Positions 3,409 through 40,454 of a stretch of 41,627 nt of DNA are shown one piece after another. The notes beneath the pieces were generated by a model. It did not search any database, had not been told where the DNA came from, and saw nothing but the letters and a program-made list of their open reading frames with translations. This stretch comes from a virus. Numbering within the stretch: position 1 is the first letter of the stretch; each line of letters begins with the position of its first letter. Both the position numbers and the translations under genes were made by a program. The stretch spans positions 1-41,627 of IMG/VR virus record IMGVR_UViG_3300049215_000099; one strand, 5' to 3'.

Positions 3409-4149
3409 ATGGGCGTGTTCGTCTCCGCTGAGGAAGCACGCCGAATCGTCCAGGGCAAACAGCATCAACTGAGGCGACCGCTAGGCAAGCAGAAGCTCTC
3501 AGAGGGCAAGTCCTACGCCCTGAAGGTGGGGAAGGCCCCAAGCAAGCTAAAGATCACGGTGCTCGAGCTCTCAGAGCAGAATCAGAGCGATTTCAGCATC
3601 CGCGACGCCAAGCGCGAGGGCTATAGAACCACCAAGGAAGCCCGAGAACATTGGCCCCAGAAGCTCAAAGACGCTCAGAGACACCAACTCGTGAGCTTCA
3701 GCCTGGGAGACAACTCCGACCAGATCAGACTCCTGCGATCAGGAGCGCCGGCGATGGTCCTGTGCAAAGCCTCGGTCAAATGGATTGATTTCAGCACCGA
3801 GCCTCCGCTTGAATGGACTCAGCCCTGCCATCGAGCATTTGCCGATGACCAAGAAGTCTGCAAGTGCGGCGCACGTAGACCGGCAGAAACCGAGGAAGAC
3901 CGGGGCTACACGACCAGACCCCAAGCAGCTCTCAAGGACGCCGGCGAGGAAGTCTCCGAGAGCTGGCAGAAGCGCTACGCCAAACAAGCCGAGGAGCAAT
4001 ACATCGGCATCGTCGCTGACCGCTCCAAACGCCTCCAGGCCGCGATAGCCGAGATCAAGCTCCACGCCAACGGCGAGAACGTCAACAAGCGCCTACGCGA
4101 AGCGCAAAGACGAGCCAAGAAGTGTTCGCCGTTGGATGTGGTACTTTAA
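3409..4149 (+). CDS. ASCH-like domain protein
   Basis: A 246-residue protein. The N-terminal 125 residues suggest an ASCH/PUA-type RNA-binding fold: an early AEEARRIVQGKQHQLRRP segment, then ITVLEL, then IRDAKREGYRTTKEAREHW. A short Cys/His cluster (CHRAF, then CKCGARRP) near 140-160 could bind zinc. The rest is charged and helical. The domain call rests on pattern memory and is tentative. ASCH proteins are common and poorly understood in actinophages. Confidence 0.5.
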   Translation: MGVFVSAEEARRIVQGKQHQLRRPLGKQKLSEGKSYALKVGKAPSKLKITVLELSEQNQSDFSIRDAKREGYRTTKEAREHWPQKLKDAQRHQLVSFSLGDNSDQIRLLRSGAPAMVLCKASVKWIDFSTEPPLEWTQPCHRAFADDQEVCKCGARRPAETEEDRGYTTRPQAALKDAGEEVSESWQKRYAKQAEEQYIGIVADRSKRLQAAIAEIKLHANGENVNKRLREAQRRAKKCSPLDVVL

Positions 4150-21532: not shown

Positions 21533-21949
21533 ATGGAGATCACCCCTGCATCCTTCGCTCAGGTCCACATGGGCCGCGATGGGCGTCGAGTCACAATCGA
21601 AGAGGATGTGGGAAACGTCGCCAAGAGGATCAAGGAGATCAACCCGCGCTTGGGCCTTCAATGGAACGAGCGCGGGGAGTTCTTCACGGTCTTTGAAGAC
21701 GACGGCAAGACCGAACGATTGGTCCTCACCGCCCAGGAGTGCGACGAGCGGATCGTCAAACGAGTCGAAGAGATCGCCTCCCCGGGCTATGACTACCTCG
21801 GGGAGATCGACCGCATGGACGCACAGGCGGAGAAAGACAAGGACCATCGCTTCCACGAGCAGACGGGCGAGATCGGGGAACGTCTGGCCCATGCCCTGCG
21901 CAAAGACCTCCAGGCCAAGAACAAAGCCTTCGTCACGAGGAATGTCTGA
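21533..21949 (+). CDS. Charged head-region protein
   Basis: A 138-residue charged protein (GNVAKRIKEINPRLGLQWN) with a helical C-terminal half. It abuts the preceding gene and overlaps the adaptor gene by one base (TGATG). No domain recognised. It probably acts in head completion, by position. Confidence 0.5.
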   Translation: MEITPASFAQVHMGRDGRRVTIEEDVGNVAKRIKEINPRLGLQWNERGEFFTVFEDDGKTERLVLTAQECDERIVKRVEEIASPGYDYLGEIDRMDAQAEKDKDHRFHEQTGEIGERLAHALRKDLQAKNKAFVTRNV

Positions 21950-35903: not shown

Positions 35904-35967
35904 TCCTGTAGTATCGCGTCCGCCCCGAGCGCATCGGGCAGTCCATACGCAGCATCCCCTCCTCGGC

Positions 35968-35993
35968 AAAGCCCTCACTTCGGTGGGGGCTTT
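35968..35993 (+). terminator. Rho-independent terminator of late operon
   Basis: AAAGCCCTCAC (35968-35978), loop TTCG, then GTGGGGGCTTT (35983-35993): an 11-bp stem with one G-T pair and a stable tetraloop, ending in TTTGTT. It is 65 bases after the last late gene. This is the clearest terminator in the window. Confidence 0.85.
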
Positions 35994-36020
35994 GTTGGGT
36001 TCTGGGGCATTTGCTATTCT
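35992..36020 (+). promoter_or_regulatory. Candidate promoter after late terminator
   Basis: TTGTTG (35992-35997), a 17-base spacer, then TATTCT (36015-36020). The -35 box overlaps the T tract of the terminator. It would transcribe the secreted protein gene at 36159. Two mismatches in each box relative to consensus keep confidence moderate. Confidence 0.45.
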
Positions 36021-36599: not shown

Positions 36600-36836
36600 C
36601 TATGATCCCACAACCTCTCGGTTGAGGGCTACCAACGGGCCGTCATCTTCGGGTGGCGGCCCGTTGCGATCGCCACCCTCCTGCTCGACCGTGACATCCG
36701 GGTAGGGCTCGTAGTAGTCATCCGTCTTGCGCATGTTGTAGCGGAGCACTTTGCCGATCAGCTCGTCACCCTCGTTCTCGGGTCGCCAGCCTTCAACCTG
36801 CTCGGGCTCCTCGTCCAGCTTGTCTTTCAGAGACAT
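36600..36836 (-). CDS. Small acidic protein, divergent
   Basis: A 78-residue protein on the minus strand, starting MSLKDKLDEEPEQVEGW. The middle (DELIGKVLRYNMRKTDDYYE, then PYPDVTVEQEGG and LVALNREV) resembles small OB-fold-like phage proteins of the type G-x-V-x-R...YP-VTV. It is transcribed away from the recombination genes across the repeat-rich region. No strong ribosome site is seen upstream (AATTTTTCATG region). Confidence 0.6.
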   Translation of the reverse strand: MSLKDKLDEEPEQVEGWRPENEGDELIGKVLRYNMRKTDDYYEPYPDVTVEQEGGDRNGPPPEDDGPLVALNREVVGS

Positions 36837-36864
36837 GAAAAATTGAATCGGCCTTTAAATGAAC

Positions 36865-36922
36865 CCTAGAAGGCCTTTCTAGGGATGCCCTCACCTAGAA
36901 GGCCTTTCTAGGGATGCCCTCA
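36865..36922 (+). repeat. Two tandem 29-bp palindromic repeats
   Basis: 36865-36893 and 36894-36922 are identical. Each begins with CCTAGAAGGCCTTTCTAGG, arms CCTAGAA/TTCTAGG around GGCC with one mismatch, then GATGCCCTCA. They start about 30 bases upstream of the minus-strand start codon. Operator sites or replication iterons are the likely roles. Confidence 0.85.
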
Positions 36923-36926
36923 CCGC

Positions 36927-36957
36927 CTGTTGCCCTATAACTACTGTTGGGCAACAG
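36927..36957 (+). repeat. 9-bp perfect inverted repeat
   Basis: CTGTTGCCC (36927-36935) and GGGCAACAG (36949-36957) flank the 13-base spacer TATAACTACTGTT, which also holds a TATAAC box. It is directly downstream of the 29-bp repeats. It could be an operator over a promoter, or a hairpin at an origin. Confidence 0.75.
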
Positions 36958-37035
36958 AACGGATTTGTTCAAAGTCGAGTCCCTCGCACCTTGACCCTAA
37001 CGCCCATCTTCTGGACGATTCGCCTCGCGGCTCCC

Positions 37036-37054
37036 GGCGGGACGGGTTCCCGCC
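37036..37054 (+). other. GC hairpin
   Basis: GGCGGGA-CGGGT-TCCCGCC, a perfect 7-bp stem with a five-base loop. No T tract follows, so a terminator is unlikely; it stands just upstream of the multibranch structure. Confidence 0.55.
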
Positions 37055-37085
37055 TCCGGTGCTTGCCTGTGATCGGTTGCGCCGT

Positions 37086-37194
37086 TCGCAACTCAAGAGG
37101 GTTCCTCTTCGACCCCGGGAAGGCTTCCGCCGTGCCCGGTCACGGGAGCAGTTGGGCGCTACATGAGCGCCGCTCCCGTGTGAACGAGTTGCGA
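37086..37194 (+). ncRNA. Predicted multibranch structured element
   Basis: TCGCAACTC (37086-37094) pairs perfectly with GAGTTGCGA (37186-37194) and encloses three arms: AAGAGG-GTT-CCTCTT (37095-37109); CCGGG/CCCGG (37115-37119/37135-37139); and CACGGGAGC/GCTCCCGTG (37141-37149/37172-37180) capped by GGCGCT-ACATG-AGCGCC. The first arm abuts the closing stem. The pairing is seen by eye; that it is an RNA, rather than folded single-stranded DNA at an origin, is inference. Confidence 0.45.
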
Positions 37195-37269
37195 GGCGGG
37201 TTTACTACTGCCGCGCAAGTGGTATGCTGACGTCGTTCTCGTCACGGAGACATTGTAGCAGCCAACGGG

Positions 37270-37291
37270 CGCCTCGTCAATAGACGGGGCG
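37270..37291 (+). terminator. Candidate terminator hairpin
   Basis: CGCCTCGTC-AATA-GACGGGGCG has a 9-bp stem with one T-G pair, followed by TTCGTCGTTCT, only partly T-rich. It sits between the TATGCT promoter-like box and the ERF promoter, so it could end a short transcript of about 60 nt. Confidence 0.4.
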
Positions 37292-37319
37292 TTCGTCGTT
37301 CTAGCCGCATCCATCCATT

Positions 37320-37331
37320 CGGTTATGATGC
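37320..37331 (+). promoter_or_regulatory. Promoter-like element TCGGTTATGATG, copy 2
   Basis: TATGAT at 37324-37329, 30 nt before the ERF ATG at 37360. The leader (ACCCCAACCACAGGAGGACC) resembles those of the other copies. It would drive the ERF-exonuclease operon. Confidence 0.65.
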
Positions 37332-37359
37332 CTCAGACCCCAACCACAGGAGGACCAGC

Positions 37360-37956
37360 ATGACCGACGACACCCCCGATGAGGACGCCCCCGAGGTTTC
37401 CGAGCCGGACCCCGAAAGACTTGGCGAAGCTCTCTTGGCCGTGCAGGTCGAGGCCAAGGCAGTCCAAGCCGACGCGATCAACGAAGGATTCAAGCGCAAC
37501 GGCAAGCCATCGAAGTACGTCCCACTTGAGACGCTGATGCCCGCGATCCTGCCGCTGCTCAACAAGCACGGTCTGGTCTGGATCACTCGCCCTATCGAAG
37601 GTCCGATGCTCAACTACCACCTTCTACACGTCGAAAGCGAGGAGAGCATCACCGGCACCATGCCCCTCCTCGGAGTCTCCAACATGCAGCAGCTCGGGGG
37701 AGCCATCACCTACGCCAGAAGGCAGTCCCTCATGGCAGTCCTCGGCCTGGTCGCTGAGAAGGATGACGACGGCGAGAAGTCCTCCAAGCGGCCGAGCGGC
37801 GATGACCGGCCTCTGCCGAAGGCCAAGCGCGAGAACATGGCGGCTCAGATCGAGGCGTCGGGCAAAGACCTGCAAGTCATCCTGACGAGTGTCGGTGCCG
37901 AGAGCCTTGAGGCGGTGACCGTCGCGCAGGCCAAGCAGATCGCGGCGCTGCTATGA
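37360..37956 (+). CDS. erf: ERF-family single-strand annealing protein
   Basis: A 198-residue recombinase. After an acidic N-terminus comes the ERF core: KYVPLETLMPAILPLLNKHG near 47-66, a beta region with LLHVESEESITGTMPLLG, and QQLGGAITYARRQSLMAVLG near 111-130, the family's most conserved segment. The C-terminal third is charged and helical. ERF proteins anneal complementary single strands with an exonuclease partner, here the next gene, which overlaps by ATGA. ATG 37360 follows CAGGAGGACCAGC. Confidence 0.88.
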   Translation: MTDDTPDEDAPEVSEPDPERLGEALLAVQVEAKAVQADAINEGFKRNGKPSKYVPLETLMPAILPLLNKHGLVWITRPIEGPMLNYHLLHVESEESITGTMPLLGVSNMQQLGGAITYARRQSLMAVLGLVAEKDDDGEKSSKRPSGDDRPLPKAKRENMAAQIEASGKDLQVILTSVGAESLEAVTVAQAKQIAALL

Positions 37957-38795
37957 CCATCACTGAGCTTGGCGGCGAAGTGGTCGAGCGCGAGATCGAG
38001 GGTGTTGGCCTTCTGCGGTTTGAGAACTTCGGCGTTGGCGAGTGGCTGACGCAGAAGGGCGAGCCGGCCAAGAAGGCGCGACGCCGCTATCTGCTCAACG
38101 GTCAGGAGCTTGACTCCGTGTCATCGGTCGTCGGGCTGCTTTCCAAGGAGGCGCTCTACTACTGGCACGAGGACCACGGCGCTCGAGGAGCCATCGAAGC
38201 GATGGAGGCGGGCGAGCTCGAGGGCGTCCCGATTGAGGAAGCGATCAAAACGATCCGCGCTCTCAAGCTCGGAGCCAAAGCCGCCAAGGAGGAGGGAGCC
38301 GACCGAGGCATAGCGATCCACGAGGCATTTCAGACTCTCGCCGCGACAGGAGAGGCCCCGAGGTTCGGAGATTTCCCGCAAGCGTGGTGGCCGTGGGTCA
38401 AGGGCTGCGCGAAGGCATGGCTCAAGCTTGACCCCGAGCCGATCGACGCGGAGTTCATGGTCTGCAACCCCGAGGCAGGATACGCGGGCAGACCCGACCT
38501 CTACTGCCGCTCCAAAGGCCAGCGCGTATTGGTCGATTACAAGACGGGCAAAGGCCGCATCTACGAGCAGGCGCACTACCAGACGCGCGGATATGCGGAG
38601 GCGTTCGAGCCGTGCCACATCGACCCCCCCGACCGCATCCTGATCGTGGGCATCGGTGACGATGGCTCAGTGATCCTTGAGGATTGCGCCGCAACCTCCG
38701 AGGACTGGTCGGCGCTCCTGCACACCTACCACTCCCGCAAGCGAGTCAATGCAGCGATGGCTCTGGCGACCAAGGAAGCGAAGGCGGAAGCATGA
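37953..38795 (+). CDS. PD-(D/E)XK exonuclease
   Basis: A 280-residue RecB/Cas4-type nuclease. His123 in GIAIHEAF, an acidic DAEF near 165-168, GRPDLY with Asp182, VDYKTGK with Asp195 and Lys197, and QAHYQTRGYAEA near 206-217 are the motifs of the family in order. It probably resects double-stranded ends for the ERF protein encoded directly upstream. No CxxC iron-sulfur cluster is evident. Confidence 0.85.
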   Translation: MTITELGGEVVEREIEGVGLLRFENFGVGEWLTQKGEPAKKARRRYLLNGQELDSVSSVVGLLSKEALYYWHEDHGARGAIEAMEAGELEGVPIEEAIKTIRALKLGAKAAKEEGADRGIAIHEAFQTLAATGEAPRFGDFPQAWWPWVKGCAKAWLKLDPEPIDAEFMVCNPEAGYAGRPDLYCRSKGQRVLVDYKTGKGRIYEQAHYQTRGYAEAFEPCHIDPPDRILIVGIGDDGSVILEDCAATSEDWSALLHTYHSRKRVNAAMALATKEAKAEA

Positions 38796-39641: not shown

Positions 39642-39934
39642 GGCCCCGATGCTTCCTCGCTGAGTTCTCGGAGGAGCCCTGCGAAGGCAGACTCCGAGCA
39701 GTCCACCTGATCCCCAAACAGACGCTCAGGCGCGCCTCCTGGGACCCCTGGGACCCTCGATCCTTCGTCCCGGCCTGCGGGGGCATCATGGGGCTCTCCG
39801 GCTGTCACGGACGCCTCGACGCCCACCAGATCACGATCCCCCCGGAGAAGCTACCCCCGGAGCTGATCGAGCTTGCCGAGGAGTCCGGTCTGATCTGGTA
39901 CCTGGAACGGCGGTACGGCTATGCCCCGTCCTGA
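39638..39934 (+). CDS. HNH-like nuclease
   Basis: A 98-residue protein from GTG 39638. Motifs in order: CFLAEFSEEPCEGRLRAVHL near 5-24, IPKQ, WDPRSFVPACGG near 40-51, CHGRLDAH near 58-65, and ESGLIWYLERRYG at the end. This is the pattern of a small HNH-type family found in actinophages, in which the paired Cys and His bind metal. A partial copy lies at 940-1029, just across the contig junction. Confidence 0.65.
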   Translation: MRPRCFLAEFSEEPCEGRLRAVHLIPKQTLRRASWDPWDPRSFVPACGGIMGLSGCHGRLDAHQITIPPEKLPPELIELAEESGLIWYLERRYGYAPS

Positions 39935-40454
39935 CCGCTCCCACCTAAAGCTCATCGACACAGCCACAGGCGAGATCACCGAGTACGCCTGCGCCAGCTG
40001 CGGAGTCAAGGAGCACGAGATCGACGGCCTCACCCGGAAGATGCGAGGACTGGCCCGCGAGAACTCAGAACTCCGCCGCGACAAGGAGGCCGAAGCCGAG
40101 GAACACGAGCTGCGCCCCGTCATCGATGCCCTGTTCGCCTACTGGCAAGAGGTCACCGGCCACACCCGCGTGCGCCTCACCTACCAGCACTTCTGGTGTG
40201 CCCTGCCGATGCTCAAAGCCTGGGGCGTGGGCAACTGCGCAGCCGCCATCGCAGGCAATGCCTATGACCCCAACACCAAACCCAAGAAGAACGGCAAAGG
40301 GCTAGAGGTCTACAACGACTGGGAGACCGTCTTTCGCAACTCCGGGAACGTGCGCCGGTACATCGAGCGACGCCCCGCCGGTTGGACGCTCCCCGAGAAC
40401 TTCTACGGTCTGCCCGATGGACGGCCCAACCGTCCGCCTGTAGATCGGTTATGA
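39921..40454 (+). CDS. Possible replication-associated protein
   Basis: A 177-residue protein. A CxxC pair (ACASCGVKEHEIDGL) leads into a coiled coil (RKMRGLARENSELRRDKEAE), then a globular region with VTGHTRVRLTYQHFWCALPM and DWETVFRNSGNVRRYIERRP. The C-terminal pattern recalls uncharacterised phage proteins near resolvase and replication genes. It may be an initiator-like factor; unproven. Its stop lies in the promoter-like element copy 3. Confidence 0.5.
   Translation: MPRPDRSHLKLIDTATGEITEYACASCGVKEHEIDGLTRKMRGLARENSELRRDKEAEAEEHELRPVIDALFAYWQEVTGHTRVRLTYQHFWCALPMLKAWGVGNCAAAIAGNAYDPNTKPKKNGKGLEVYNDWETVFRNSGNVRRYIERRPAGWTLPENFYGLPDGRPNRPPVDRL

Follow-up and report, generated by a model that had tools for sequence, protein, structure and literature searches.

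The window, an IMG/VR virus record of 41,627 bases, carries a three-armed fold at 37086–37194 that is real and unusually perfect. Its MFE is -60.3 kcal/mol on the + strand (z -5.7), far outside the range of dinucleotide shuffles, of which 0/200 were as good; the opposite strand gave an RNA z of -5.2, and DNA parameters gave a stronger value than RNA parameters (z -7.4). The sequence-only reading had held that the element has more order than GC content predicts, which was borne out both by these shuffles and by a GC-corrected scan of the window, where it was the fourth best RNA locus (z -4.0). When only Watson-Crick pairs were counted it ranked second (z -5.4), the next locus outside the control region reaching -3.3; in that scan nothing in the 41.6-kb window was an outlier except the fold and the tandem palindromes at 36865–36922. 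Our best explanation, a tentative one to which we give less than an even chance, is a folded untranslated segment of + strand RNA that would insulate or attenuate early transcription.

The predicted MFE structure is a four-way junction of 109 nt and 38 pairs on the + strand. The energy model gives the structure that had been drawn from the sequence, with a 9-bp closing stem (37086–37094/37186–37194) around three arms, the third capped by a 6-bp tip. The main stems had all been called perfect; this holds for the closing stem and for arm 1 (37095–37109; 6 bp, 37095–37100/37104–37109, loop GTT), and fails for arm 2 (37115–37139; 5 bp, 37115–37119/37135–37139, plus an inner 3-bp stem), the sole imperfect arm. 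Arm 3 (37141–37180) has 9 bp (37141–37149/37172–37180) followed by a 5-nt bulge and the 6-bp tip (37155–37171; 37155–37160/37166–37171). The stems had also been said to abut or nearly abut: arm 1 does abut the closing stem, and the four unpaired joints measure 0, 5, 1 and 5 nt. Pairing probability was at least 0.9 for all arms in the tested RNA contexts.

The window comes from an uncultivated tailed phage, with genes for portal, terminase, major head protein, lysozyme, ERF, exonuclease and the resolvase RusA. The closest named portal proteins, about 27% identical, are from Cellulosimicrobium, Microbacterium and Arthrobacter phages. Genome scans for relatives of the exonuclease or terminase found no prophage. 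For replication initiation there was one weak match (39921–40454; phrog_16167, 2.5e-4), and Rep was absent among the proteins scanned. The fold sits in a 523-bp non-coding control region (36837–37359), bordered on one side by a leftward 78-aa gene (36600–36836, - strand, 49% identity to a relative's protein) and on the other by the rightward operon of an ERF-family single-strand annealing protein (37360–37956, + strand; PF04404, 3.6e-14) and an exonuclease (37953–38795, + strand; phrog_298, 2.2e-25). Folding scans found structure abundant throughout this region, and a low-GC stretch (36811–36975) lies near the fold.

Several further elements were noted between the leftward gene and the fold. 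Two identical adjacent 29-bp repeats (36865–36922), each containing the palindrome CCTAGAAGGCCTTTCTAGG, stand out more strongly in folding than any other place in the window and are probably either paired operators or a terminator-like hairpin or leftward attenuator of the leftward gene. A perfect 9-bp inverted repeat, CTGTTGCCC/GGGCAACAG with the 13-nt spacer TATAACTACTGTT (36928–36958), was seen in the sequence and its folding and is a possible operator. Outside the control region, a strong hairpin of 13–15 bp (36633–36666) falls within the end of the leftward 36600–36836 ORF, between convergent genes, and is a possible two-way terminator doubling as coding sequence. The long hairpin GCAAAGCCCTCACTTCGGTGGGGGCTTTGTT (35955–36000) lies within an open reading frame close to the lysis genes, and an unusually stable fold (21590–21735, z -4.2) lies within a coding region.

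The 3′ strand of the closing stem has a second possible partner. A 17-bp outer stem with 5 G-U pairs can form between 37017–37033 and 37186–37202 on the + strand; as it uses the same 3′ strand, it and the 9-bp closing stem are mutually exclusive. In folding models the choice depends on the RNA start: with RNA beginning at 37017 or earlier, the outer stem has a pairing probability of 0.96–0.98, while for a start at 37026 its probability is 0 and that of the closing stem is 0.58–0.95, varying with the 3′ end. Stems of at least 14 pairs occurred in 7% of shuffles of the outer-stem region, so that the modeled two-stem switch is possible rather than demonstrated. Just 5′ of the fold is a GGCGGG/CCCGCC hairpin (37036–37054, + strand), whose 3′ strand can also pair with 37193–37200.

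Promoter-like sites flank the fold. They were scored with a matrix of 11 TTGAC-17/18-TAGGGT-like sites from relatives, which had been picked by pattern rather than known from experiment. TTTACT-16-TATGCT (37201–37228), the top-scoring site on the + strand of the window (score 14.3, rank 4 with both strands counted together), is a candidate promoter that begins 6 bp beyond the fold. Upstream is a weak promoter-like site on the + strand, TTGACC-17-GACGAT (36991–37019), ranking 47 or lower in the window; if used, it would start RNA near 37026 and would transcribe the fold. Downstream of the 37201 site is a 14-bp hairpin (37265–37296) with an AATA loop, 3 G-U pairs and a poor T tail, stable as + strand RNA. 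Unlike the three-armed fold it favors the + strand (2.7% of shuffles), and, lying between ERF and the 37201 promoter, it may be an attenuator or terminator.

We found no sign of coding in the fold: on the + strand the codon score across it was -0.54 to -0.28, versus 0.16 to 0.34 in genes, and the small ORFs across it, which have negative scores and no homologues, were rejected as an explanation. None of the families tested includes the fold. Rfam had no matches in the window, a permissive search of 36800–37400 giving chance-level matches only, and ARAGORN found no tRNA or tmRNA. No intrinsic terminator was called at the fold, where GGCGGGTTTACTACT, following the closing stem, makes a poor terminator tail. 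Terminal repeats of an inserted element were considered and dropped, as the flanking duplication was not seen. Each early promoter of N4 is a single DNA hairpin, with a loop of 3 bases, that a virion RNA polymerase reads (PMC4496689); the phage here likewise has perfect small inverted repeats in its early region, and the loop of arm 1 is 3 nt, but the fold has three arms within a closing stem and no virion RNA polymerase was recognized in the window. A hairpin promoter of this kind was rejected, the 1206-aa protein of the window having no virion RNA polymerase match. At most, the fold works like a phage early leader element.

Searches for homologues of the fold were negative. DNA searches found none in phages at E 1e-5, and chance-level matches only in phages and plasmids at E up to 10; exact patterns for arm 1 and for the 3′ closing strand had no match in IMG/VR. 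A covariance model (R1), made from one sequence and insensitive to distant homologues, gave no credible match in either the 41 loci or the 42 other virus records searched, the latter including the nearest relatives (portal 72–84%). A perfect 10-bp closing stem in the relative L096 (9549–9632) was examined and rejected, its fold not being significant (z -1.3).

The equivalent region was examined in relatives with portals 72–84% identical or exonucleases 56–69% identical. Tandem units of promoter, short structured leader, terminator-like hairpin and promoter precede the recombination genes in L004 (3799–3945), L006 (3642–3925, with 3773–3925 within it) and L096 (10149–10257). L004 and L006 have a promoter, a leader of about 110 nt with three hairpins, a GC-rich hairpin with a T-containing tail, and then the next promoter; L096 has a promoter, a short leader, a terminator and then ERF. 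Leader length across these relatives is 75–110 nt, and the promoters at L004 3341 and L006 3773 are immediately preceded by terminator-like hairpins. The layout of promoter, leader and hairpin thus recurs in relatives, whereas the fold of the window does not. The leaders of L004 and L006 are 87% identical and keep 96% of paired cells in their three hairpins; a single A-U pair is replaced by G-U, and double changes are absent. This common unit may represent a small RNA family. SSB genes lie on the opposite strand by the control region in L004 (2661–3014, - strand, Pfam PF00436) and L006 (2978–3355, - strand, judged from sequence), and the counterpart of this position in the window is the unrelated 78-aa gene.

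None of the 38 pairs of the fold is G-U, whereas comparison windows with at least 36 pairs (104 sampled) averaged 6.9 G-U pairs, and none of the 104 was without one. Lacking G-U pairs, either strand folds equally well and there is no strand preference; the energy difference of + minus - is 0.9 kcal/mol, within the shuffled range. The G-U count gives a modest hint of strand-neutral pairing at the DNA level, weakened because the fold had been picked for its perfect stems. The element had been proposed to be a structured RNA or a single-strand origin fold acting with the ERF and exonuclease genes. It is indeed real, non-coding and placed in the control region of that operon; for the origin, however, the perfect pairing was the only positive support, and the signs of one (iterons, an adjacent initiator gene and a skew switch at the site) are all absent.

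In the explanation that we tentatively prefer, the fold would be a non-coding + strand RNA segment of the early control region, made by transcription that enters from the weak 36991 site or from a point further upstream, with the main ERF/exonuclease promoter starting just past it. In this RNA the shared 3′ strand would pair in either the 9-bp closing stem or the 17-bp outer stem, giving alternative states; the compact branched RNA would stop or slow upstream transcription before it reached the main promoter and might, in combination with the 14-bp hairpin at 37265–37296, set the amount of early RNA that reaches ERF. To the observed fold, with its rarity, position, competing stem, lack of coding signal and comparable layout in relatives, this explanation adds by inference that it is transcribed, on which strand, and its insulating or attenuating role. 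In its favor are the energy against shuffles, the codon score, the adjoining promoter, the layout in relatives, the retention of pairs between L004 and L006, and the + strand hairpin at 37265–37296. Against it are the lack of a homologue, the weak upstream promoter, the poor tail GGCGGGTTTACTACT, the lack of a double change between L004 and L006, and the G-U count, which is unusual among the RNA folds of this genome and which strand-neutral DNA fits as well or better. The early leaders with attenuator hairpins of L004, L006 and L096 are similar in that they lie in a control region upstream of ERF/exonuclease, where promoters are interleaved with short structured non-coding segments; they differ in being simple hairpins plus terminators with no four-way junction, and have no sequence or structural homology to the fold.

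The main rival, which we consider rather unlikely, is that the fold acts as single-stranded DNA: once made single-stranded by replication or end resection, either strand would fold into an identical branched hairpin, to which a protein of replication or recombination would bind, whether for single-strand initiation or as a structure-specific site. The G-U count, the z with DNA parameters, the lack of strand preference, the adjoining ERF and exonuclease genes, the RusA gene in the genome and the low-GC stretch nearby would all suit this, but there are no iterons, adjacent initiator or skew extreme at the site, and searched relatives that share the exonuclease do not have the fold. Moreover, extrusion from duplex DNA is improbable for a branched fold that contains spacers. 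The ssi/sso single-strand initiation sites serve rolling-circle replicons (PMC5714925); the likeness is that the signal would be used in single-stranded form, whereas the window is that of a tailed phage with portal and terminase, in which no Rep gene or iterons were found. It is unlikely that the fold has no function of its own, as a chance or decaying arrangement in a hairpin-rich region: the entire control region is structured and the fold is missing from every relative searched, but shuffled sequences did not match it and the Watson-Crick scan had only two outliers. Perfect stems also decay without selection.

We judge it quite unlikely that the fold is a separate early small RNA acting in trans (e.g., as a decoy or antisense regulator), freed by processing or termination near 37200. 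The fold is compact and self-contained, its arms holding their pairing in the contexts tested, and relatives have short promoter-to-terminator units; however, there is no clear terminator at 37200, no homologue and no conserved target, and the promoter is weak. Antitermination by HK022 put RNA works via the β′ zinc-binding domain. A put-like element, whose nascent RNA stays on RNA polymerase for read-through of downstream hairpins, is highly improbable here. The early-region position upstream of hairpins would suit it, and put RNAs are located beyond early promoters, with putR about 270 nt from its start; they too are structured RNAs of a phage early transcription region, with proposed cis action on RNA polymerase (PMC9378689). 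But put RNA has about 70 nt and two stem-loops and lies downstream of its promoter (PMC9378689), while the 109-nt fold in the window, in which two stem-loops in about 70 nt were not found, has three arms within a closing stem, lies upstream of the best-scoring promoter, and has no sequence relation to put. We consider very unlikely a new class of strand-neutral, all-Watson-Crick branched phage control element whose working form would be folded single-stranded DNA, or DNA and RNA alike, and which would couple early transcription to ERF/exonuclease recombination.

To our knowledge, cis-acting RNA control of early genes is poorly mapped in actinobacterial phages. If the fold is transcribed, early genes would be under the control of an undescribed structured element in a little-known phage group, the closest named relatives of which infect actinobacteria; action as DNA would make it a fold-recognized site of a new kind. 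Under the RNA or the DNA reading, the two competing stems offer a clear testable switch.
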